Shown here: piece after piece, positions 14,068-58,280 of the stretch
Position numbering within the stretch: position 1 is the stretch's first letter
Layout of the letters: each line of letters starts with the position of its first letter
Assembly: GCF_039645985.1 (NCBI RefSeq)
Contig: NZ_CP147919.1
Coordinates: forward strand, 2,232,001-2,296,000
Origin: Sulfurimonas sp. HSL3-7
GTDB taxonomy: Bacteria > Campylobacterota > Campylobacteria > Campylobacterales > Sulfurimonadaceae
Reading direction: 5' to 3'
DNA length: 64,000 nt
Position numbers and translations under genes: made by a program
Notes under the pieces: model-generated
The model's database searches: none
What the model saw: only the letters and a program-made list of their open reading frames with translations
What the model was told of the DNA's origin: nothing

Positions 14068-14973
14068 ATGACAAATATAACCGAATTATTGAAACCGTTA
14101 AATCTTATTTATTATGAGTATGACAATCCATCAAAAATGGTGATATTGGATCAAAAGCATACAACAGATGCCTCGATGGAACTGGTAAGCATCACGCACC
14201 TGTTTCAAAAACATAACATTCAATACATTATAGATAAAAAAAAGAACCTCCACATCGTTCACAACCCGTCTTGGATCAAAAAGATTCAATACTCACTTAC
14301 TCCAAGCATAAAGCGTTTTATCAGCAAACAATACGATGTATATGTATTAAGTGATAAAGAAGTTGACTACGCTAAGAACCTTCCTGTCATCGTTACAAAA
14401 CCGATACCTTCAGAGATTGATTTCAACCTGTATGACGGATTGATTTTCACCTCCAAAAATGCGGTCTTTGCAATTGAAAATTTTAATGAAAAATGGAGAC
14501 AGAAACCTGTCTATGCGTTGGCTCCACAAACTGCAAAAGCTGTCAAATCATTAAAAGGCCAGTTAAGATTTGTAGGTAAAAGCCATTACGGAAATGAATT
14601 TGCAAAAGAGTTGATAAAACCATTGAAAGATAAAAAGCTACTCTACCTTCGTGCAAAAGATGTGGCATCCGATTTATGTGATAACCTCAACAGTAAAGGG
14701 GTTTTATGCGATGAAGTGATTGTCTATGAAACGACCTGCAAACAGTTTGATCAAAAGATTGTTCTCCCTAAAAACTCAATCATCATTTTCTCTTCACCAT
14801 CAACAATCAACTGCTTTTTTCAAAACGCCGATTGGGATCCCACTTATACAGCCATAGCAATTGGACATACGACAGCACAGTATTTTCCGAAAGAAATCAC
14901 ACCATATATAGCAGAAACGACCTCTATAGATGCGTGTATACGAAAAGCCATGTCAGTCAAGAAATCTTTGTAA
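14068..14973 (+). CDS. HemD-like protein with an extra N-terminal domain (AT-rich)
   Basis: Residues 100-301 look like uroporphyrinogen-III synthase (HemD): VYVLSDKEV start, DGLIFTSKNAV (the TSxNAV motif), VYALAPQTAKAV, YLRAKDVASDL, VIVYETTC, and IIFSSPSTINCF near the C-terminus. Residues 1-95 form an unrecognised segment with DQKHTTDASMELV and a KKKNLHIVHNP strand. The gene is far richer in A/T than dnaX or atpE and lacks a ribosome site; TACAAT at about 14050 would give a nearly leaderless mRNA. A second HemD lies at 22995-23651. One of the two may have a different role. Confidence 0.8.
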   Translation: MTNITELLKPLNLIYYEYDNPSKMVILDQKHTTDASMELVSITHLFQKHNIQYIIDKKKNLHIVHNPSWIKKIQYSLTPSIKRFISKQYDVYVLSDKEVDYAKNLPVIVTKPIPSEIDFNLYDGLIFTSKNAVFAIENFNEKWRQKPVYALAPQTAKAVKSLKGQLRFVGKSHYGNEFAKELIKPLKDKKLLYLRAKDVASDLCDNLNSKGVLCDEVIVYETTCKQFDQKIVLPKNSIIIFSSPSTINCFFQNADWDPTYTAIAIGHTTAQYFPKEITPYIAETTSIDACIRKAMSVKKSL

Positions 14974-22994: not shown

Positions 22995-23651
22995 TTAGAA
23001 GGTCTGTAAGAGTTTTTCAGCCAATAAGACAGATGCATCGACAGTCGGAAGATCAGGCATATGATATTTTATGTTTTCAGGCAATGCTTTTGCCGTCGTC
23101 TTTCCGATCACGACAACTTTATAACTGGATTTAAAGCTAAAGAGCGTCATAAAACAGGCTATCGTCAACGGTGACGTGAAGACGAGTATTGCATTGTCAG
23201 GAAGTTCGATATCTCGGCACGCATCATTGCAATAGGTTTCATAGACAATGATATCGTCCATGTGAACACCGGCTTGTTTCACATGTTCTTTAAAATCTGA
23301 GGCGACCACTGCAGGACGGGGATACAGCCAGCGATATGAAGCGTAATTGTCTATAATGATATCCGTCAGAGAGTCGCCGTACCCTTCCCCTTTTTCAAGC
23401 AGTTCCCCTCCCGCTTTTTCGACCGCATAAGCAGTCTTGGAAGCGACACACAAAGCAGGCAGCACTTTCCAGTTTGAAGAGATCTTTTCCAAAGCCGTGA
23501 CTGCCTGTTTGGATGTCAATACAATAGCATCATATGCGCTGAAGTCTATCACCGGCTGGAAAAAACGGGTCGCTAAAATAGGGATGTGTGTTACATGGGG
23601 ATGTGAAGTCGTGGAAAAAAGAAAGATGGCGTTTTTACTATCTTGCGTCAT
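22995..23651 (-). CDS. hemD: Uroporphyrinogen-III synthase HemD
   Basis: HemD closes hydroxymethylbilane into uroporphyrinogen III in haem synthesis. The 218-residue protein has the family's two-lobed pattern: YDAIVLTSKQAV (TSxxAV near residue 44), LCVASKTAYAVEKAG, YGDSLTDII, WLYPRPAVVASDF, DIIVYETYC, ILVFTSPLTIACF and VVIGKTTAKAL. Its composition matches the genome, so it is the more likely housekeeping enzyme of the two HemD-like genes here. It lies upstream of the 6S RNA and purD on the same strand. Confidence 0.9.
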   Translation of the reverse strand: MTQDSKNAIFLFSTTSHPHVTHIPILATRFFQPVIDFSAYDAIVLTSKQAVTALEKISSNWKVLPALCVASKTAYAVEKAGGELLEKGEGYGDSLTDIIIDNYASYRWLYPRPAVVASDFKEHVKQAGVHMDDIIVYETYCNDACRDIELPDNAILVFTSPLTIACFMTLFSFKSSYKVVVIGKTTAKALPENIKYHMPDLPTVDASVLLAEKLLQTF

Positions 23652-42822: not shown

Positions 42823-42931
42823 TTAAAAGCTTCAGAAGTGGTGCGAGTTGTGTTTAAGTGATCCCGATAGCGCACGAGTGTGCGTAGAGTGGTGAACTGA
42901 AATGCAAATCGTGCCGCAGCTGAAACTTTTA
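42823..42931. repeat. Dispersed hairpin element, copy B
   Basis: The ends pair over about 22 positions (TTAAAAGCTTCAGAAGTGGT with the 3' strand GCCGCAGCTGAAACTTTTA), including G-U pairs. Inside is a 6-bp hairpin GCGCAC-GAGT-GTGCGT (42870-42885). The stop codon of the PilX-like gene (42929-42931) is the last triplet of the element. The core resembles copy A. Confidence 0.75.
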
Positions 42932-43411
42932 GAGTTTTTGCATTGTACGGCGATGATAGCGTACCGGTTCGTCTAACCCCAGATTTGGGTTATCTTGAAC
43001 ATATACATCGATCAGCATCGTACCTAATGACTCCGCCGTTTGAATCGTTCCTACTGTGCCAGCCGTAAACAATGGTGCACACCCATCCCCGAATCCAAAA
43101 TAGTTGATTGTTACGGTAATGTCATACATTGGGTCTGCAGCGTTAGGATATTGTGCGGTAAAACCTGGCAAGCAGTTGGTATTGGTTGCACCCCGATCTA
43201 CTCCAGAAACTCTTAAGATCGCATATTCTGTAGCGCTTTTTGCAAGCAGTTGCGCCTGTTCGTTGACATAAGTCTTCGTCGTACGTTCGGCCGTCTCAGC
43301 GGATGAACCCAGCATAGACAGCAGGAGTGTTGCCATAATGACCATGAAAAAAATTGCCGTTATCATGGCAAATCCATTTCTCTCTTTTAGAAAACGACTT
43401 TTTCTTTGCAT
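42929..43411 (-). CDS. PilX/MshP-like minor pilin
   Basis: A 160-residue inner-membrane/pilus protein with a pilin-like N-terminus: basic leader MQRKSRFLKERNG, then FAMITAIFFMVIMATLLLSMLGSSAE. The prepilin peptidase site would be G/F at 13/14, but the usual Glu5 of the mature pilin is replaced (FAMIT), as in PilX-type proteins. Two Cys residues (CLPGF, GCAPLF) could form a disulfide. Start at ATG 43411 with GGGGAG upstream; it overlaps the PilW-like gene by 25 bases. It is last in the run of pilus genes. Confidence 0.82.
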   Translation of the reverse strand: MQRKSRFLKERNGFAMITAIFFMVIMATLLLSMLGSSAETAERTTKTYVNEQAQLLAKSATEYAILRVSGVDRGATNTNCLPGFTAQYPNAADPMYDITVTINYFGFGDGCAPLFTAGTVGTIQTAESLGTMLIDVYVQDNPNLGLDEPVRYHRRTMQKL

Positions 43412-44217
43412 AATGAATACTCCCCTAGTCCCGCAGCATTGTTGTCCGTAAGACAAACCTGTACAATTATAGTATCACCGACAGATGCAAATTGAAATGA
43501 TTTTACATTTTCCATCAGCACCCTGCCATTGGCCATACCTTCTCCATTCCAGGGCTGATAACCGCTGTATAGTACAAGGTCACTTCCCTCCAAACTGACC
43601 GCATACGCCGTCTTTGAAAATTGATAAAACTCGTAGACACCGCCGGCCGCATCTGAAAAATCACCACCGACCGGTGTGATAATACTACCGTCCTGACCGC
43701 CTACAGTACCCGCTGTAATACTAACGGGGTGCATCGATGCGCTTTGATCACCTATTGCGCCTCCTCCCCAGCCGAAATTCGATGTCAGGTCCACATCCGA
43801 ACCGATAAAGAAGAGCGCACCGCTACCAGCCGCACCGCCGCCGGGTGAAAAAAGCTGCCCCGCGGTCGAGGCACGCAAATCAACAAAGCCGCTCCATAGA
43901 GGGGCGCCGGAACTTCTCCATCCATCGATATCTATACCTATCCACTCTAACACTTTTTCGTTTCCGCTGATACTGCCTATCGGCACCGCAGTACCCCCGA
44001 CAGCAGTCCGCGCTATTGTCGAGTCTTTTATTCGGTACTGCAGACGGTTGGCTATCTGTTTAACCGTCATCTCACTCTCATTTTCCAATCTGTTGAATGT
44101 GTTACTCGAGATATAGTTTTCATAGGTCTTATAAAGCAATTCAACGCCGAATTTAGCCATAATCCCCATGACCACAATGACAAAAACCAGTTCAAGCAGA
44201 GTAAACCCTTTACGCAT
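43387..44217 (-). CDS. PilW/MshO-like minor pilin
   Basis: A 276-residue prepilin: KG/FTLLELVFVIVVMGIMAKFG is a canonical class III signal with cleavage after Gly4 and Glu5 of the mature chain. The soluble domain is rich in Gly and beta-strand, with two cysteines near the C-terminus (VCLTD, LCKEKV). Such proteins prime pilus or pseudopilus assembly. The start ATG shares a base with the upstream TGA and follows GAGG. It overlaps the next gene by 25 bases. Confidence 0.87.
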   Translation of the reverse strand: MRKGFTLLELVFVIVVMGIMAKFGVELLYKTYENYISSNTFNRLENESEMTVKQIANRLQYRIKDSTIARTAVGGTAVPIGSISGNEKVLEWIGIDIDGWRSSGAPLWSGFVDLRASTAGQLFSPGGGAAGSGALFFIGSDVDLTSNFGWGGGAIGDQSASMHPVSITAGTVGGQDGSIITPVGGDFSDAAGGVYEFYQFSKTAYAVSLEGSDLVLYSGYQPWNGEGMANGRVLMENVKSFQFASVGDTIIVQVCLTDNNAAGLGEYSLCKEKVVF

Positions 44218-44909
44218 CAGAATATCCTCTTGGCATAATCGGCTTCGCCGATATTAGCAGTATAGGCGCGCAGTCTTGCCACAGCACCATTATCATCAGA
44301 TATCGTAACCTCAGTCATCTTTAGATTACTGACACCAAGACCGGCAGCCGGCGTTGTAAAGATATCTGTTGCATCATCGACATAAATACGTCTTCCGCTC
44401 ACGGTATAAGCAGATTTGTACCCGGTAATTGCAGCGACAGAGTTGTCTATGGCGACGGTGAAACCGGCATCTCCTACCGGTTTCGGCTGTTCGCTTGCTG
44501 CCTTGCTTGAATTGTAGTCAAAGAACTGACGGTGTCTATCTTCACGCAGACCGCCGATACGGATATTGCTGATTTCACCGTTTATTGTTGCGCGGGCATA
44601 AGGTGATCCTGAATCTGCATCATTGACATCCAGAATCTTGGATGCCACATAAACGTCGCTTTCTCCTGTATCGACAATCGACATCGTATCCCAGGCTTCT
44701 GTTGTCGCTACCGACAAGACAGAAGAGGCTAAAAACACTGCTTCCTGTGCAAGACTTCGTTCCAATGCTCTGTTATTTGTTTCTATCATCAACGGCACAC
44801 TCAAAAGTGCGACAGCGATCACGACAATGGCAAAGATTAGTTCAATCATAGTAAAAGCGCTTCGCCTTAAAGAAGCGCTAGACCATTTATAATGAGCCGG
44901 GACTACCAT
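44217..44909 (-). CDS. PilV/MshD-like minor pilin
   Basis: A 230-residue prepilin with an 18-residue leader and the motif RRSA/FTMIELIFAIVVIAVALLSVPL: Glu5 is present but residue -1 is Ala, not the usual Gly, which would slow or change prepilin peptidase cleavage. The globular part has no Cys. The ATG at 44909 overlaps the end of the giant secreted protein gene by 7 bases, with CGGAG as ribosome site inside that gene. A minor pilin in the tip complex is the likely role. Confidence 0.86.
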   Translation of the reverse strand: MVVPAHYKWSSASLRRSAFTMIELIFAIVVIAVALLSVPLMIETNNRALERSLAQEAVFLASSVLSVATTEAWDTMSIVDTGESDVYVASKILDVNDADSGSPYARATINGEISNIRIGGLREDRHRQFFDYNSSKAASEQPKPVGDAGFTVAIDNSVAAITGYKSAYTVSGRRIYVDDATDIFTTPAAGLGVSNLKMTEVTISDDNGAVARLRAYTANIGEADYAKRIF

Positions 44910-47900
44910 CTAATTCTCCGGTTGATTTTTTTCTTACCCTCGGTTATGTTGGTGTGGGTCTCATTACTGCCGCCGGATGTCCATGCACCTGGTCCGTAAT
45001 ATTCAATTTCACCGCTCATCTGAGTGGGATTTGCATTGTACGGATCATAGATAAGCCATTGCTGCACACCGGTAGGAGACGTGACCGTGACCGTGTCTTT
45101 ATACGGGAACCCGCTGCCGGCGTTGTAGGTAAAAGGGCTGTCTGTTTCGCCGCGACTTGTTGTAAAGGCACCTGATGCAATCGCCGCGGATTGCGTTGTT
45201 GCGGTAACGGCACCATCTGAGATGTTGTGTTCAGCATTTCGATACCAATTTACACTGTCAAGGCTGCGTTGTCTTTTGTTGCTCGGCAGCAATGCAGTGA
45301 TCCATGCTTTTTCTTGCGCCGTCAATGTTTCGTCTGCATAAAATTCATAGTAAAATGTCATATCACCTGTACACGCTGCTGTACTGCTTGCACACATCAC
45401 ACGTTTTCTCGGGGCGTTCACACGTCCGTAGAGATAGATAACCGTTGCATCAACTGTTTTAGTCCCTTCTGGTTCATGAATAGCCGTCATATTTGCATAA
45501 CTTTGACAATTTGCTGCCGTCGTACACGATACATTTAAATCACCATATGTGATTCCGATAGGGTTAACAGGCGTATTACCAAACCTGTCGAAATTAAGAT
45601 GCAGCGTCACATCGGCTTTTCCGTCTGTCGTACCGCGAAAGCTTGTTGCTGGGACACTGATTACATTTAATTCAGGCAATCCTCCACTGGTTCCATTGGT
45701 ATCTCTGATAACAACGGGAACATTATCACGCTCGAATAATCTGTATCTAAATATCGGTGTTGCAGGTAACGGTGACGTTTCGACATCCAAGTCAATCGAT
45801 TGTGCATAACAGTCTGCTACAAAGTTACTTAGGTCTAAATCATCAGCGCCTCTGGCTTTAATAAAGCCATCATAACGTGCTGACATATTGGCATCTTGAG
45901 TCAGGGTATTCATATAAACGAATGAGTTATTGTTAACGACCGTGTTTTGTACACCCCTGTAAAACGAAACAAGATCCAGGTCAAATTTGAACGGATGAAC
46001 GGTGATGTTGTAATCAGCATACTCTTTGGATAGATCAACATTAGTGTGTGTACTTGATATAGAGCATCCTACTGGATCAGTATATGGTGATAGACCGGTC
46101 GATGGGACATCGGCACTATCAACAACACAGTCATTACCAAGGTAATAATAACTGCCTGTATGATGTTCTGGCGCCTGGTCGACGACTGTCCATGCTTTAT
46201 CTATCATCGCCAGATCATACCGGCCGACATTGTCACTTTTGTTTTGCTGATTAAGCGCTATACCGTCTACTAAATGCCCGTAGACATATTTAGCCGTTGT
46301 GTCATTACATGCAATTGCTGCTGTAATAGGGTCCCATTTGTACATGAGACTACGGTTTTCGTCAGGCGCCGCAACAAAAGTATTGGTATACCCTAGAACA
46401 GGGTTTTCATCGCTATGCGAAACAGCGGTCAGATCATAACGGTAGTTATAACCCGCCGCAATATTGCCAGGGTTTGGAACAAGTGTCGTCGGATCGCCAT
46501 TATTTACAGATTGGGCATTGTCGAAGATCTCTACTTTGAACGCTTCCGGACGAATTGAAAAATTATCGCGGGAACAGACACTTAAGGTGCGGTACCCATA
46601 CAGACACTCATTACATATGGCCATCTCCTGCCCTGTTATACCGTTACCCTGTCCCGCATTTTGACAGGCGACAGGAACCAGTGATGTTTCATTCCCGTTT
46701 GGCATGACAACAGGCTGTTTACATGTGTGATAGTCCTGTACAAGATCTGTAAAGTTTGTGATGTAAAAATTGCCGTTGGGTGCATGTTCCCACTGGACAA
46801 GGTCCTCACCCTCCCTTACAACGTTAAAAGAGATCCTAAAGGCTGTATTCTCTCGAGCAACGCCATAAAACTCATCCAATGACGCGGTCGTCATACCAGT
46901 TGCTATCGCCTCTGCAATGTCGACCTCTGTTTTGGCAGGCGGTGTTAGTGACCCGTCTCCAGCTATAACCCAAACTCTAGGCGTAATGGCTGACTTGGGA
47001 TCTTGACATGATGCATTCACATCATGATAAGGTTTAGCGTCAATGAGTTCAAGAGCGACAATGGTATTAACGCCTTTCATTGTGTGAATATTTTCAGGGT
47101 CATACGCAACAAGGTCAAAATCGAACGGCCGTTTAGCGACCTGCGTATAGAGGTTATACTTGCCGGTACCCGAGATTGCACGCTCTTCGATATTGAAAAC
47201 AGACCATTCCGGCGTATATACAAAGTTGCTGCCGGAACATATAGGCATGTTTTGATCAATAATACTGCTGAAGTCAACGACGACATCACCTGTCGGGAAC
47301 GGGAACGTCACGGAGTAATCGACTTTCATGTCCAGCGGTGTATCCAAGCTGCTGGTTTTGGTATCAACGGAGTAATAGACAAAGAACTCTTCTGTACTGC
47401 CGATATCACCTACCGGGATACCCAATATATCCGTTATGTTCGGTGAGCTGCCAACGACGTCAAACGAGGCATCCGGAACAGGGGTCGGAGCAAAATCGCC
47501 TGGATTGGTGACCGATACGGTCTCCGGTTGGTACGAGATTTGTGTATTATCCATATCTATCACGCTAAAGTGTACATTGGTCGCATCAAAATCAGACTCT
47601 TCTGTATTGCGTACCGAAATCCGTATTTCAACCGGTTCGCCGCTAACCACATTTCCCCGAAGGATCGGTCCTTCCAAAGGATCATACACATCTGTAAAAA
47701 ATCGGTCGTACTGAGAATAAGCGTAATCATAGCAGAGGCGGGGAACATACAGATCGGTTGCAAAACCGTACATCGAGACAAAAACCCTGTCATCTTTGGA
47801 CGTTACTGTGATGGTCGTTTCTGACTGGTCATTGCCGATGACACTGCTGACGTCTATGTAGTCGATATCGACACCCAAAGTGTTTGCAAAATTCGGATTA

Positions 47901-49279
47901 CGTGTTGTAACATTAGCGCCGTTTTTGGAAACGGTACCATTGAGTACATTATTGGTGTCTGCCAATGTATCTTGCAGGGCTACCGGTGTACCTGCTTTAT
48001 TGGTTAGTGTGACGGTATCATCCAGACTTCTGTCGCTTTCTCCGCCAAAAATAATGAGGTTGGCATTGACTGTACCTGTTTTAGGCGTTCTGAATCTATC
48101 CAGTGTAGAACTGACGCTGTCCGGGTACTCATTACTTTCATTATAGATACCTTCAAACCCATCATACAAAGCAATGTTTTTCATCGTACGGATTTGTGAG
48201 GTTGTGTCTTTGATAATAACAGCCAATGCCCAGCCCGAGCCTTGATTATACATCTCTGTTGCCTGCAGATCGGCTACCCAGTACGTCCCGCCGTTTTGAA
48301 CATGTTCTGTTACGTCAGCAGCACCGCCATAATCAAAGTAATCTCCTTCGATCATCCAATTAAATTTGTTTACTTCGGCATTAATCGTAATGTAGCCGTT
48401 TGAGTCGGGTGTTTTCAAACGCACGGTATTGGCACTACTCTTTTTCGCTCTTTCTGTATCATTATTAGTGTATATACGCCCAATCCAATAGAGCCATGCC
48501 TCCACAACAACATCATCTTCGCCTAAGACCAGATCGGCAGATGTTGAGTTGACATACCCGTTGGCTGCCGCGTCAGGATCAAGGTTGATATGTTTTTGAT
48601 AGACTGAATTGTTATTTGCGCCGTTACCAGGATCAATACACGTTGATCCGTATCCCTGATAACATAGCGATTGGTTTCCGATAACATCGAGATCGCCGTA
48701 GATGTTTGTGTCCCCGTTCACTTTCGTGAATGGCCTCGGATTGCTCTCTTCCACATCGACACATGGATTGACTTTGCCACGATACATTTCACCGTTTTTC
48801 ATATAGGTCGCATAGAGAATATCGCCTCCAAAACAGCTAGCTGACAAAAAGTTCTTTGTCCATATCTGGTTGCTGTTGTCACCGACAAGCATATCGTTAT
48901 CAATATTAAACGTTGTTGCCTGTCCGAAAAGACCGATAGGCCCAAGATCTATGTCACTTGCAGCCTGACATGAGCCCGAAGGGTTCACACCGCAGTCATT
49001 ACTGAAGGTACCACCTATCCCATCTTCATTGTAAATAGCCATAACGTCGACAAGCGTACCATCACCGATATTTTTTAACGGATATGCATTGATACAGCCG
49101 ATACCACCTGAACAAATACCGAGGTCAATACATAACAGTCCACTGCTGATGTGATTTTCATAGCAAAGATCATTCGCATTATCATGTACGGTTACGGTTG
49201 CCCCCCATCCAGATACAGTAAACATCATTAGCAAACTAAAAGTGACAATTAGCCGCGGTAATTTATTAAAAATTTTCAT
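44903..49279 (-). CDS. Giant secreted Cys-rich surface protein, MshQ/PilY1-like in position
   Basis: A 1458-residue protein with a signal peptide (cut near GWGA, residue 27) and no other membrane segment. It is rich in Asp/Asn/Thr and has many Cys, often in pairs, as expected for a disulfide-stabilised exported protein. Residues about 240-520 form a module with VVVEAWLYWIGR, AADVTEHV, GSGWALAVII and IALYDGFEG, a pattern I recall from other large secreted proteins. A later segment (CSRDNFSIRPEAFKVEIF, near 910) resembles the MshQ-type region. The C-terminus ends in a basic RRIRW. It heads the coupled minor-pilin genes, so it is probably a pilus-associated adhesin; I cannot confirm the family. 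Confidence 0.85.
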   Translation of the reverse strand: MKIFNKLPRLIVTFSLLMMFTVSGWGATVTVHDNANDLCYENHISSGLLCIDLGICSGGIGCINAYPLKNIGDGTLVDVMAIYNEDGIGGTFSNDCGVNPSGSCQAASDIDLGPIGLFGQATTFNIDNDMLVGDNSNQIWTKNFLSASCFGGDILYATYMKNGEMYRGKVNPCVDVEESNPRPFTKVNGDTNIYGDLDVIGNQSLCYQGYGSTCIDPGNGANNNSVYQKHINLDPDAAANGYVNSTSADLVLGEDDVVVEAWLYWIGRIYTNNDTERAKKSSANTVRLKTPDSNGYITINAEVNKFNWMIEGDYFDYGGAADVTEHVQNGGTYWVADLQATEMYNQGSGWALAVIIKDTTSQIRTMKNIALYDGFEGIYNESNEYPDSVSSTLDRFRTPKTGTVNANLIIFGGESDRSLDDTVTLTNKAGTPVALQDTLADTNNVLNGTVSKNGANVTTRNPNFANTLGVDIDYIDVSSVIGNDQSETTITVTSKDDRVFVSMYGFATDLYVPRLCYDYAYSQYDRFFTDVYDPLEGPILRGNVVSGEPVEIRISVRNTEESDFDATNVHFSVIDMDNTQISYQPETVSVTNPGDFAPTPVPDASFDVVGSSPNITDILGIPVGDIGSTEEFFVYYSVDTKTSSLDTPLDMKVDYSVTFPFPTGDVVVDFSSIIDQNMPICSGSNFVYTPEWSVFNIEERAISGTGKYNLYTQVAKRPFDFDLVAYDPENIHTMKGVNTIVALELIDAKPYHDVNASCQDPKSAITPRVWVIAGDGSLTPPAKTEVDIAEAIATGMTTASLDEFYGVARENTAFRISFNVVREGEDLVQWEHAPNGNFYITNFTDLVQDYHTCKQPVVMPNGNETSLVPVACQNAGQGNGITGQEMAICNECLYGYRTLSVCSRDNFSIRPEAFKVEIFDNAQSVNNGDPTTLVPNPGNIAAGYNYRYDLTAVSHSDENPVLGYTNTFVAAPDENRSLMYKWDPITAAIACNDTTAKYVYGHLVDGIALNQQNKSDNVGRYDLAMIDKAWTVVDQAPEHHTGSYYYLGNDCVVDSADVPSTGLSPYTDPVGCSISSTHTNVDLSKEYADYNITVHPFKFDLDLVSFYRGVQNTVVNNNSFVYMNTLTQDANMSARYDGFIKARGADDLDLSNFVADCYAQSIDLDVETSPLPATPIFRYRLFERDNVPVVIRDTNGTSGGLPELNVISVPATSFRGTTDGKADVTLHLNFDRFGNTPVNPIGITYGDLNVSCTTAANCQSYANMTAIHEPEGTKTVDATVIYLYGRVNAPRKRVMCASSTAACTGDMTFYYEFYADETLTAQEKAWITALLPSNKRQRSLDSVNWYRNAEHNISDGAVTATTQSAAIASGAFTTSRGETDSPFTYNAGSGFPYKDTVTVTSPTGVQQWLIYDPYNANPTQMSGEIEYYGPGAWTSGGSNETHTNITEGKKKINRRIRW

Positions 49280-49706
49280 TTAATCCTCCTCAGGATTTTC
49301 AGTGCAGCACAATACAGGGCTCGGTAAATGATTATTATAGTCCCGAAAATTATGCTACTGCACCCATCGGTATGTCAACCGATCTTAAAATCTTTTCCAT
49401 TCTTAAACAAAGAAAAGATGCCATAATTACAAGTGTATTAAAGCTAATATTAAAGTGTGGTTAAATTATATTTGATCTGAGTTCTCTTAGAGGCGTGCTT
49501 CCATGACTGATAGACAAGTGACGTGCTGCGGTTCATTAACCAAATCAAAAAGATTTCTCATCACTTACTGCGTATTAAAATACGCGTACTAGATTATAGT
49601 CCAAGTCGCTCACATTTTAATAGTGGCTAAATTATACATAATTTATATGTTGCAAGATTTGTACACACCTGATTTTAGTGATTTGATTATATATGCGAAG
49701 AATGTA
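49280..49706. other. Upstream region of the giant secreted protein gene
   Basis: About 430 A/T-rich bases. It holds a sigma-70-type promoter (see next entry) and a strong ribosome site AGGAGGATTAA directly before the ATG. The rest, including a short palindrome near 49570 (TGCGTATTAAAATACGCGTA), has no recognised gene. The length leaves room for a regulated leader. Confidence 0.5.
49349..49378 (-). promoter_or_regulatory. Promoter of the giant protein/minor-pilin run
   Basis: TTGACA (49378-49373) and CATAAT (49354-49349), 18 bases apart, on the minus strand, 70 bases before the start codon. Confidence 0.6.
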
Positions 49707-49750: not shown

Positions 49751-50338
49751 TTAGTAAGCACCGGTAAATTTGAACACTAAAGAGGCATAGCCTTCTGCAA
49801 GATAGTCTACCGTTCCGATTTCATTCTGGTCGCCCAGTGATTTGTTGGCCCGTATACCAAGTTCAACACCGAAATTGTCGACAATATCAATGTTTACACC
49901 GACATCGGCACCGGCATACGGGTTATTTGTAGTGTATTCCGTTTCACCTATCGTTGTCTGAGCACTCATGAGACCGCCATTGAGACCTAAAAAGATGTTA
50001 AAATGCTCACCTGCGCGGATAAGATACTGCATCTCAAGACCGACAGTTGATACGTAGTCATAATCTTCGACATCATGATAACGTGCCGATAAAAAGAAAC
50101 GATAGTCCTCGGATTCGCCGCCGAGCTTAAGACCGCCGCCAAACGAAGTGCCGTTCTCATTTAAAATAACATGATCACCACCACTTGGACTTGACTCTGT
50201 CAATTTTGTCTGCGCTGTACCAAAAGCACCCTCAAGTGCGATCAGGCCTTTAGCATCCCATGCTGTTTGAAAATAGTTCTCACCTGCTGTTGCATATACA
50301 CTTGTCAGAAGTAAAACTGATCCTAATACTTTTTTCAT
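49751..50338 (-). CDS. Outer-membrane beta-barrel protein
   Basis: A 195-residue protein with a signal peptide (MKKVLGSVLLLTSVYATA, cut near residue 18). The body shows alternating amphipathic strands (SFGGGLKLGGESEDYRFFLSARYH, GLEMQYLIRAGEHFNIFLGLN, GADVGVNIDIVDNFGVELGIR) and ends in an aromatic residue (FKFTGAY), as in small 8-strand outer-membrane barrels of the OmpA/OmpW-like kind. No OmpA peptidoglycan domain. It is 45 bases after the lipoprotein gene on the same strand. Function unknown. Confidence 0.85.
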   Translation of the reverse strand: MKKVLGSVLLLTSVYATAGENYFQTAWDAKGLIALEGAFGTAQTKLTESSPSGGDHVILNENGTSFGGGLKLGGESEDYRFFLSARYHDVEDYDYVSTVGLEMQYLIRAGEHFNIFLGLNGGLMSAQTTIGETEYTTNNPYAGADVGVNIDIVDNFGVELGIRANKSLGDQNEIGTVDYLAEGYASLVFKFTGAY

Positions 50339-50382
50339 TTTTTCCCTTTATATTCAATCTATTTATTGCAGTCGGAAGCGAA

Positions 50383-52590
50383 TTAGAATTCACCCCAAAT
50401 TACGTTTTTGACTTCCATAGTGACTGTTCCACCCTTGTCATTTCCTGGAACTGGGTCATCAACATAAACTGTCACAAACGTCGACCCGTCGTAATCACAG
50501 TTATACATTCTGTATCCGCCGTTTGCACCCAGTCCCAATTGATAAGAAACAACTCTCGGTGTTGCACTTTCCGCTGCATCTCCAGTAAATTTCAGCGTGT
50601 AGACAAACCTGGAGTTTCTTAAGAATACCGGTGTATCGACCACACTAATACCTGAAAAGTTGATTGGCATAGCTACAGCACCCTCCGGAATGTTAAAGGT
50701 ATCAGTATATTCAAGCCCGTGTCCGCGAAGAGTATGTACCATTGTCTCACCGCCACGAACATCACCTACCGAACCGCCATTCACATGTGTTACGACATTT
50801 GCATAGATGGCAACTGTCTTGGCAACAAGATAATAGTCATAATAGACATCTATAACAGCATTTCCGTTAGCGTCCAGTTTATAGGTACCATCTCCTGATG
50901 AAACATAAGCTGTCGCCTTTGCACCTGTCTGCGAACAGACCTCTTGACGGTAGTTGTGCCCGATGACATAACCCATATTTGCTTCAGTCGGCATCGTCGT
51001 TGCATATTCATCCAGCAGATCTATCGTGCTTCCAGCCACAGATGACATATCCCATTTACCTGAAGCGTGGAACGGATAATCATACAAATCACTTCGGAAA
51101 GTAGTCAATTTATCATTCGCCAGATCAATTGTCGTGTTGGCAATATTCGCAGCAGTCAGTTGAGCTCCGCTGCCTGCATTCTCAATGGTTGCGATACCCA
51201 CCGGAGCATGGTCGATGATCGGTGTCAGACTGACAGCATATTGGTTTCCGACAACACTTGAGCTATTTAATTCATATGTTTCATCTCTGGCATAACCGGT
51301 GATAACCCCCGCAGAAATTGTCGATCCCCTATTGACTTTGTTACCATATTCATCGACGGCAGAGATCACGATATGCTCAATGAATTTTGCATTATCAGCG
51401 TCTTGGCCTGTGCCCGCATAACTCATACTGAATGCAGTTGGCGGCCCCGAAAGAATGACAACAGAAAATAACTTGCTCACTGTCTGGGCGACGCCATTAA
51501 CGTCGGTAAAACTGAAACTAACCTCGATAGGCAATAAACCTGATTTGTTAAAACTCAAAAGCGATACTGTCACGTTGTTTGTAGTTTTTGCAATCGTTGT
51601 GTCTTGTACCGTACCGTCAGAGTCGATCAAATCCGCAATTTGCGAGTTCAGCAGCGTAATCGACATGGCTGATATAGCATCGTCAGAAACGACGTTACCA
51701 TCTTTATCTTTTAGAAAAAAGCTGAGCACACGCGTTTTATTGAGATCCATTGTCACATTTTCATCATCTATTGATGAAGTGATAAGATATTCTGTTTGAA
51801 TGACTTGTGTCGGATCAGGGTTAAATGTGAATGTAACACTTGTACTTGTCAGTGGGTTCAACGTATCAAAAAACACAAAATCATAACTGGTACCATTCAG
51901 GTTGCTGATATCTGAAGGTGCAGTATAGACGAATTTTGCTTCTCCGTTTACAACTGCAACCTCTTCTATAGGGTTCATAATACCGGCATTTAAAGCAGAC
52001 GGATAACGTACACCGATAGTTCCTTCAGAGATAGGAACAAAATTACTGTTACGCACCTGCAATACGATCTCTCTCTGCTCCGAGTTCAGCGTGATATTGT
52101 GCGATGCAATATCTACAGTAATCGCTGCAATTGGAGAAACATCCGCTACAGGAAGCGATGCTTGAATTGATGTCGTTGCCTTAAATGGCCACGTGATGTT
52201 TTGATCATTTATCTCGTCCGCTGTCAATGTCAAAGAAGTTGATGTACAAGGTTCTGTGAAACCGATAGTAACACCGGATTGTACATCGCTGTTATCTGTA
52301 TAAGATATTGTATTGTTCGTCCCAATGGTATACGATTGGATAGTACATCCATCAACCTTCGGCACTATATTAGTGACTTCTGCATTACCTTCGAGTGTGT
52401 ACTTGGTAGTTACTGTACCACTGACACTCAAACTTGTGCTGTCAAAGCTCAAAGAGCTGTTACTCAGTACGACACCGCTAGTTTTCAGGGGATCATTCGA
52501 TTGTGCATCCCCACATCCAGATAGCATTCCCATCAAAGCTGTAAGCATCAGGAAACTAGCTGTCTGTTTTAGTCCAAATTTCATTTTCAT
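50383..52590 (-). CDS. Large lipoprotein with Ig-like repeats
   Basis: A 735-residue lipoprotein: lipobox LSGC with Cys26 and Gly at +2, predicting the outer membrane. The body is made of beta-sandwich repeats of bacterial Ig-like (invasin-type) pattern, e.g. DIASHNITLNSEQREIVLQVRN with later KDKDGNVVSDDAIS and SAVDEYGNKVNRGSTISAG. It has few Cys apart from the N-terminal region. A surface or adhesion role is likely. It is transcribed toward the OMP and giant-protein genes, but each may have its own promoter. Confidence 0.83.
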   Translation of the reverse strand: MKMKFGLKQTASFLMLTALMGMLSGCGDAQSNDPLKTSGVVLSNSSLSFDSTSLSVSGTVTTKYTLEGNAEVTNIVPKVDGCTIQSYTIGTNNTISYTDNSDVQSGVTIGFTEPCTSTSLTLTADEINDQNITWPFKATTSIQASLPVADVSPIAAITVDIASHNITLNSEQREIVLQVRNSNFVPISEGTIGVRYPSALNAGIMNPIEEVAVVNGEAKFVYTAPSDISNLNGTSYDFVFFDTLNPLTSTSVTFTFNPDPTQVIQTEYLITSSIDDENVTMDLNKTRVLSFFLKDKDGNVVSDDAISAMSITLLNSQIADLIDSDGTVQDTTIAKTTNNVTVSLLSFNKSGLLPIEVSFSFTDVNGVAQTVSKLFSVVILSGPPTAFSMSYAGTGQDADNAKFIEHIVISAVDEYGNKVNRGSTISAGVITGYARDETYELNSSSVVGNQYAVSLTPIIDHAPVGIATIENAGSGAQLTAANIANTTIDLANDKLTTFRSDLYDYPFHASGKWDMSSVAGSTIDLLDEYATTMPTEANMGYVIGHNYRQEVCSQTGAKATAYVSSGDGTYKLDANGNAVIDVYYDYYLVAKTVAIYANVVTHVNGGSVGDVRGGETMVHTLRGHGLEYTDTFNIPEGAVAMPINFSGISVVDTPVFLRNSRFVYTLKFTGDAAESATPRVVSYQLGLGANGGYRMYNCDYDGSTFVTVYVDDPVPGNDKGGTVTMEVKNVIWGEF

Positions 52591-56488: not shown

Positions 56489-56998
56489 TTACGGTGCCTT
56501 TGTATAAACCTGCAAAGTAAAATGGGTGGCAATGCCATCGGCTTCTCCCTTGAATTGCAACGCTCCCACAACCTCGCCCACCCAATCAAACTCATTCAAA
56601 GCGTCGATAAAGCGGTAATATTCTGCAGGCGAAGCGATCTTGGCGCGGACATCAAGTGTATCCACCTGAAGCTTATTGCTTTTTGTACTGCTTATGCCGG
56701 TAAGCGTCAATGCTGAAAAGTAGTGCTGCAGATACCCTTCCAAACCTTTTTGATCAAAAGATTTGTGCAATGCAATATCTATCTTCTTCTCTTTCTCCTG
56801 AAGAGCTTGGAGCCTGCCGTACTCTTTGTCGAACTCTTTTTCCAGGCTCTTAACATCTTCAGCCGTCTGCTCTATCCCGATAGATAACGCACGATAGGCT
56901 TTGATCTTGGGGGTAAAGACAAAAAATCCAAAAAGCACCACACCGCTCAAAAGCAGAAAAAGCAGCACGGTAAATCCGAAAGAGGTACCCTTGCTCAC
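56489..56998 (-). CDS. PilO-like pilus alignment protein
   Basis: A 169-residue protein with one transmembrane helix (about 8-30), a coiled-coil (about 40-70) and a C-terminal ferredoxin-like domain, the PilO pattern. It would form the inner-membrane alignment subcomplex with PilN. It abuts the PilN-like gene (one shared base) and is the last gene of a run from the HP0268-family gene. Assignment rests on topology, size and order rather than strong motifs. Confidence 0.8.
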   Translation of the reverse strand: MSKGTSFGFTVLLFLLLSGVVLFGFFVFTPKIKAYRALSIGIEQTAEDVKSLEKEFDKEYGRLQALQEKEKKIDIALHKSFDQKGLEGYLQHYFSALTLTGISSTKSNKLQVDTLDVRAKIASPAEYYRFIDALNEFDWVGEVVGALQFKGEADGIATHFTLQVYTKAP

Positions 56999-57504
56999 TA
57001 CTCCTCCTCCATGATCGAAATATTGTTAAAACGGTAGCTGCCGTCTTTGAGTTTTGTAAACGTTGTGGTACTGCGGCTAAAGCGTGATGCCAATAAAAGT
57101 TGAAAAGAGGTGTTGAACTGCTCTTTGTTTTGCGTAAAGCCTTTGAGCCGAAGCGTGTTGTCACGGAACTCTGCCAGCTCCAAGGTTACACCGCCTGGCA
57201 CTAGGTCGAAGAAATTTTTGACATTCTCTTTCTGAAGTCTGTTTTTAGTACTGATCTTTTCACGCAGTTTATCCAACTTCTGCAGTCTCGCGATTTCTGC
57301 GATGACCATTTTTTTCTCACCGTCAAGTTTCTGTTTTCTTACCTCCAGGGTAGTCAGCTCTTGCTCATAGCGTTCAATCGCATAATGTAAAAAGATAAAA
57401 CTGCCCGACATGACCAGCAGAAGAAGCAGGAATGCCGCAAAGAGCCACTTGAGCTCTGCACCAATGATTTTTTTACGGCGGGGCGCTATAAAACTATGTT
57501 TCAA
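56998..57504 (-). CDS. PilN-like pilus alignment protein
   Basis: A 168-residue protein: short basic cytoplasmic N-terminus, transmembrane helix (about 20-40), coiled coil (about 45-85, EQELTTLEVRKQKLDGEKKM), then a small alpha/beta domain with FFDLVPGGVTLELAEFRDNTLRLKGFTQ, which matches PilN. Its start overlaps the PilM-like gene by 4 bases. No pilus motor or secretin genes are nearby in the window. Confidence 0.85.
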   Translation of the reverse strand: MKHSFIAPRRKKIIGAELKWLFAAFLLLLLVMSGSFIFLHYAIERYEQELTTLEVRKQKLDGEKKMVIAEIARLQKLDKLREKISTKNRLQKENVKNFFDLVPGGVTLELAEFRDNTLRLKGFTQNKEQFNTSFQLLLASRFSRSTTTFTKLKDGSYRFNNISIMEEE

Positions 57505-58280
57505 GTGAGCTCCATTTCGCCTAACACGGCAAGTTCATGAGGCAGCTCTACACTGCGCTTTTCTACTTCGACAAACAGCTCCTCTTCAAGTCTGTTTTCC
57601 AGACGTACATCGAAGTCCAATGCATCCGCCATGTGAATCTTCTCGATGAACATTGCCCCATCTGCTTTTGCCTCATAAAAATCCTTCACAATCGATTGCA
57701 TCGTATGCACATAGTCATCAAGAATCGCGTTCTCTTCATGCAAAGAGAGAGGCTTCTGCATCTTTATCAATGTCCCGTAAAGCAAGGCGCCGTTTTTAAC
57801 GACACTGCCGACTATAAACCCCTCACCCAAAAGAAGGTAGAGACCATCATCTTTCTGCATGCTTTGCTGATAAACGTTGTATAAAAGGGAAAACGGCGAG
57901 AAGATAAAGTCAAGTCCGATATTTTTATAGTCACGTTGGCGTTCAAACAGCGCGTCCTTATCCATATAGATGCCCCACTTGTCGTCAACACAAATCTTCT
58001 CAAAATGGCTCGGATCGGCCACTTCCATCCGATTGCAATCGCTCAATAGTCCCTGGGCTGCTTCTGTCTCCAACAAAGCGATATAGCTGACAGCGCTTTC
58101 ACGTTCAAGCTGTCTGAGCTTTTTTTCCAGACTCTCAACGCTTTTAACCGTCTGCTCCTCAAACCGTTTGATCATCTTTGCATTTTTACGGAGTTCGGCG
58201 TACAGCTTTACCCCCTCCTCTGAAGGTGTCAGCGTAATAAAAAGCTTCGGCAAAAGAGATTCAAGAGTTTTCATCATCAT
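57501..58280 (-). CDS. PilM-like protein (degenerate actin fold)
   Basis: A 259-residue soluble protein without transmembrane segments. Its order before PilN-like and PilO-like genes, and a DGLYLLLGEGFIVGSVVKNGALLYG pattern like the second actin-fold lobe, suggest PilM/MshI. The ATP-binding phosphate loops are not clear, so it may not bind nucleotide. It overlaps the xerH stop by 20 bases, with three in-frame ATGs in a row at its start. Confidence 0.72.
   Translation of the reverse strand: MMMKTLESLLPKLFITLTPSEEGVKLYAELRKNAKMIKRFEEQTVKSVESLEKKLRQLERESAVSYIALLETEAAQGLLSDCNRMEVADPSHFEKICVDDKWGIYMDKDALFERQRDYKNIGLDFIFSPFSLLYNVYQQSMQKDDGLYLLLGEGFIVGSVVKNGALLYGTLIKMQKPLSLHEENAILDDYVHTMQSIVKDFYEAKADGAMFIEKIHMADALDFDVRLENRLEEELFVEVEKRSVELPHELAVLGEMELT

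Follow-up and report, generated by a model that had tools for sequence, protein, structure and literature searches.

In the 64,000 nucleotides analysed (positions 2,232,001 to 2,296,000 of contig NZ_CP147919.1 of Sulfurimonas sp. HSL3-7, hereafter the window) we found a cluster of four overlapping genes that probably encodes the minor pilins and tip of an MSHA-type type IV pilus, including a divergent MshQ whose outer modules would do the binding; we give this reading a probability of about two in three. The genes run on the minus strand from a 1458-residue secreted protein (the giant) through a PilV-like and a PilW-like to a PilX-like prepilin, with overlaps of 7, 1 and 25 bases, an order and spacing that the original prediction had claimed and that the open reading frames confirmed. 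The features of the region are as follows.

49349..49378, minus strand: candidate promoter TTGACA-18-CATAAT, about 70 bases upstream of the giant start; an 11/12 consensus match and not evidence of function
44903..49279, minus strand: giant secreted MshQ-like protein, 1458 aa; open reading frame and homologues in relatives
49199..49279, minus strand: putative signal peptide (about 27 aa) at the N-terminus of the giant, read by eye from the sequence
48752..49198, minus strand: variable N-terminal stretch of the giant, residues 28-176; low identity and occupancy in the alignment
47483..48751, minus strand: conserved beta-sandwich module of the giant, residues 177-599; Thermus match and AlphaFold model
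44906..46642, minus strand: C-terminal domain of the giant, residues 880-1458, a divergent DUF6701 (MshQ family) domain by homology to a relative's giant (L097); AlphaFold model
44903..44909, minus strand: 7-base overlap ATGGTAG, spanning the last Trp codon and stop of the giant together with the PilV start
44217..44909, minus strand: PilV/MshD-like minor prepilin, 230 aa; TIGR02532 above cut-off, position conserved in relatives
43387..44217, minus strand: PilW/MshO-like minor prepilin, 276 aa; PF07963 and TIGR02532 above cut-off, position conserved in relatives
42929..43411, minus strand: PilX/MshP-like (GspK-like) minor prepilin, 160 aa, without Glu5; weak GspK match, conserved C-terminus

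The presumed signal peptide of the giant (MKIFNKLPRLIVTFSLLMMFTVSGWGA) has a basic start, a hydrophobic core and small residues ahead of the presumed cleavage site, and a strong ribosome-binding site, AGGAGG, lies directly 5' of the giant's ATG. Against TIGR02532, the type III prepilin motif, the PilV-like protein scored 17.5 bits and the PilW-like protein 24.2 bits (cut-off 16.3), and the latter also passed PF07963 (21.6 bits against a cut-off of 21.2). The PilX-like protein has the sequence GFAMITAIFF and, like GspK and PilX, lacks Glu at position 5; its match to GspK was weak (E 3.5e-6, below cut-off), and its C-terminus, RRT.QK, is kept among relatives. Its coordinates use the ATG start at 43411, where the mechanical ORF list instead opens at an upstream TTG (43456). 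Downstream of PilX lie convergent HPF-like and RecG-like genes, and then Lon. Upstream of the giant (window 49751-52590, minus strand) are a lipoprotein-like protein of 735 residues that belongs to no Pfam family and a protein of 195 residues resembling an outer-membrane beta-barrel, neither of which stands beside the giant in the relatives' loci that were read. Elsewhere the window encodes two uroporphyrinogen-III synthase (HemD)-like proteins (14068-14973, plus strand, and 22995-23651, minus strand), one of them with an N-terminal extension.

The canonical MSHA order is D-O-P-Q, with MshQ last, and the original prediction had taken the cluster to match the MshD/O/P plus MshQ part of such loci with the giant exceptionally first. 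The MshQ/DUF6701 relation and the MSHA machinery, both described below, bear out the likeness, but the position of the giant turned out to be no oddity of this genome. Homologues of the giant were found by tblastn in 120 of 200 related genomes, and a profile search found its last ~580 residues in 169 of the 200. A contig scan of a second collection gave no match with the window giant as single query and 133 matches with the C-terminal profile; from this collection we kept 79 loci, every one titled as a Campylobacterota-type organism (Sulfurimonas, Sulfuricurvum, Sulfurovum, Sulfurospirillum, Hydrogenimonas, Nitratifractor, Arcobacter and uncultured kin). The two locus sets have some genomes in common, and each count is drawn from a single set. 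In 69 of the 74 fetched Campylobacterota loci with enough downstream sequence, the start of a prepilin falls between 90 bases before and 60 bases after the stop of the giant, so the arrangement is not due to chance and "giant first" is the rule in Campylobacterota; the loci that were read one gene at a time showed the same order. The commonest overlap in relatives is of the type NTGGTRR, in which the last Trp codon and the stop are read through the pilin start, and Trp is the last residue of the giant in 64 of the 74 loci. Since the terminal Trp is also retained in giants that lack the overlap or have no pilins next to them (L066, L067, L092), it is not merely a by-product of the overlap. Two or three giants stand in tandem in three loci (L057, L059, L093), two of these arrays preceding a single pilin set, which looks like adhesin duplication and divergence. 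We also saw lone giants near murI, with no adjacent pilins and still ending in Trp (L067, L092, L093, L102), and, in one genome (G152), a second giant near its msh genes.

No DUF6701 (PF20419) match above the curated cut-off was found in the window's own genome, nor by hmmscan of the whole giant or of its C-terminus, and searches of the giant against Pfam, NCBIfam and the PDB gave no direct match of note; a Caf1 match was too weak (E 0.12) to be used. PF05567 (PilY1) was found neither in the giant nor in the genome search, in which control genomes gave no match either. About 16-17 genomes among the 298 examined from the phylum had DUF6701 above cut-off, often in frames that also match the window giant, and the window giant is homologous to DUF6701-positive proteins across the DUF6701 region. 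The giant of L097 matches DUF6701 at residues 765-1059 (81.8 bits, cut-off 27), and residues 1091-1458 of the window giant align with it from 903 to its end (E about 4e-14 to 7e-13), while along the N-terminal module the two proteins match with an E-value of 1e-41. The alignment to the L067 giant extends over 1250 residues (E 3e-117); this frame gave a DUF6701 match of 54 bits in a more sensitive genome search and no such match by hmmscan. Residues 880-1458, which end in NRRIRW, have a CSRDNFxIRP stretch and other invariant positions in common with L097 and L067. Because it is homologous to these DUF6701-positive proteins, and is encoded beside MSHA-type minor pilins (D/O/P), we place the giant in the MshQ line, of which it is, judged by sequence, a divergent member itself below Pfam detection; the assignment runs through relatives and not through direct comparison with gammaproteobacterial MshQ. 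The HMM search for DUF6701 and PilY1 proposed in the original prediction thus had a mixed outcome, with DUF6701 recovered only by way of relatives and PilY1 not found, and the middle and end of the giant, which had been called unrecognised, can now be partly recognised as a DUF11-type module shared with Thermus and a divergent DUF6701 domain. No DUF6701 relatives were found in the plasmid sequences searched.

In contrast to its base, the outer part of the giant is highly variable: residues 1-150 have a mean identity of 7-14% and low occupancy in our alignment (A1), and domains of the Big_9, cadherin, choice-of-anchor L, Laminin_G_3 or H-lectin type occur in the giants of relatives (H-lectin in L095 and L100, and Laminin_G_3 also in L095). 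Residues 183-599 match DUF11 proteins of a Thermus megaplasmid by tblastn (30% identity, E 2e-26), which suggests a surface module exchanged between distant phyla. AlphaFold models of residues 177-720 (pLDDT 86, pTM 0.84) and 880-1458 (pLDDT 80) were both fairly confident and mostly beta-sandwich, and Foldseek searches of both against the PDB returned generic beta-sandwiches at low TM-scores and nothing informative. The matches of the N-region to streptococcal antigen I/II C-domains (TM about 0.2-0.3) and of the C-region to axoneme Ig-like proteins were not used as functional evidence.

The genome (one contig, 2.87 Mb) encodes an MSHA-type operon at about 955-965 kb. Its MshL scored 276.7 bits against TIGR02519 (cut-off 250.2), and in one operon with mshL are mshE (T2SSE with an MshEN domain), mshG (T2SSF), MshN-like TPR proteins and I/J/K-like genes; an AAA_22 ATPase adjoining mshL is MshM-like by its position. 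Short pilins with an N_methyl motif, possible candidates for the major pilin MshA, lie at 441-445 kb, there is one prepilin peptidase, and the cut-off of the PilT family (TIGR01420) was exceeded three times by PilT/PilU-family ATPases (L033, L034 and L035, at genome C1:1363574, 581835 and 2810584). The T2SS is encoded separately, with G, H, I and J genes and a K-like gene of its own. The tip operon, at 2.275-2.281 Mb, lies 1.3 Mb from the MSHA machine, so that the two do not form the single locus that is usual for MSH systems. Adjacent PilM-, PilN- and PilO-like genes (259, 168 and 169 aa; window 56489-58280, minus strand) lie 7 kb upstream of the cluster; the PilM-like protein had no Pfam or NCBIfam match, and the MSHA and T2SS loci seem to own separate PilM/N/O-type sets besides these.

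The original prediction had named a genome without pilus machinery, or pilins belonging only to a type II secretion system, as findings that would count against it; the MSHA machinery is present, and across genomes the cluster goes with MSHA and not with the T2SS. In 51 near-complete genomes (at most 10 contigs), MshL, with presence set at E below 1e-60, was found in 43 of the 44 that have the giant domain and in two of the seven without it, and GspG above cut-off was absent from half of the former (22/44), all counts ignoring kinship; in the single exception (G016) the giant domain is present and the secretin match only weak. These figures argue against the prepilins and giant being T2SS pseudopilins with a large secreted substrate or a pseudopilus-tip factor, as might be supposed from the GspK-like PilX, the N-terminal resemblance of the other two prepilins to pseudopilins and the presence of a T2SS in this genome. 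That T2SS has its own G to K-type genes, and in two relatives the cluster adjoins MshL-type genes: in L095 (G168) the giant and the D, O and P genes form an unbroken run with mshI-J-K-L-M-N-like genes, the secretin scoring 248.4 bits against MshL, just below cut-off and far above its GspD score, and L100 (G152) has the same arrangement with two genes inserted after the giant. We consider the T2SS explanation largely refuted and very improbable. Somewhat less improbable, though still unlikely, is that the cluster serves another type IV filament, for example with the PilM/N/O-like genes, and not the MSHA machine. The extra PilM/N/O-like set upstream and the usual separation of these clusters from msh genes would fit such a filament, but the PilB/GspE-type extension ATPases of the genome number just two, an MshE-type and a T2SS-type enzyme, and the cluster tracks MshL across genomes.

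If the cluster is indeed the tip operon of the MSHA-type pilus, the giant would be exported by Sec and its DUF6701-like C-terminal end held by a complex of MshD, MshO and MshP (PilV, PilW and PilX); the three minor pilins would prime assembly and end at the tip carrying the giant, a location suggested by analogy with MSHA and PilY1. The N-terminal beta-sandwich modules would then point outward, where their targets may be a surface, mineral particles or another cell; MshE and MshG would power extension, with the MshL secretin as the outlet, and a PilT-family ATPase would power retraction. The co-evolution test lent the docking step no support, as a partial Mantel test of the giant C-terminus against the pilins, with species signal taken into account, fell short of significance (r 0.14, p 0.06); PilV-PilW co-evolution was strong (r 0.73). 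We infer that a tip adhesin is the best reading of the giant, because MshQ of V. cholerae is a putative MSHA adhesin (PMC7096442) and relatives of the giant carry lectin domains; MshQ has also been listed as an MSHA protein whose function is unknown (PMC9815625). V. cholerae lacking mshQ has less MSHA on its surface (PMC7096442), and this, like the invariant C-terminal residues and nearly invariant last Trp, which point to a conserved structural role, would suit a PilY1-like factor that starts and stabilises pilus assembly and leaves adhesion to the major pilin. Such a role in place of adhesion seems unlikely to us: the N-terminus is strongly variable, with lectin, cadherin and Big domains exchanged from one species to the next, as suits ligand binding, and adhesin and priming functions can coexist, as they do for PilY1.

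A broader form of the tip-adhesin reading, which we offer tentatively and would not yet favour, is that Campylobacterota possess a phylum-wide, split MSHA pilus whose modular, fast-changing tip adhesin, built of a constant DUF6701-like base and exchangeable outer domains, sets each species' sticking target, such as elemental sulfur or neighbouring cells. A family in which the base stays constant and the outer domains vary, widespread among sulfur-oxidising bacteria of vents and sediments, is a natural series in which to test MshQ as a tip adhesin. In Sulfurovum indicum, mshL was reported to be raised in growth on elemental sulfur (PMC10045233), and the giant is a candidate for the hold on sulfur particles.

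MSH systems of Epsilonproteobacteria were already reported by Denise et al. 2019 (PMC6668835), whose model has mshL, mshE, mshG and mshM as mandatory genes, allows mshA to be a loner and finds MSH almost exclusively in one locus. The Campylobacterota cluster very probably belongs to that same system; MshQ has 0 occurrences in the main text of the paper, and the present operon is not described in the passages of it on which we draw. Since MSH in Epsilonproteobacteria was thus known, and since the gene order recurs across relatives, what we describe is no new kind of system; it is a divergent variant of a known pilus, with a split tip operon, the giant first and an MshQ below family detection. 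Like the MSHA loci of Vibrio, Shewanella and Aeromonas, it has V/W/X-type minor pilins beside a very large secreted DUF6701-type protein, in a genome that also encodes a secretin, an ATPase and an AAA protein of MSHA type; unlike them, it has the giant first and not last, the operon apart from the machine and a giant that escapes Pfam. In the match to the DUF11 surface proteins of the Thermus megaplasmid only residues 183-599 of the giant are shared, its DUF6701-like end being unmatched there. To PilY1 with PilV, PilW and PilX of the type IVa pili of Pseudomonas and Myxococcus the likeness is one of plan, a large secreted protein with three minor pilins that is expected at the tip, whereas the gene order and the protein family of the giant are different.
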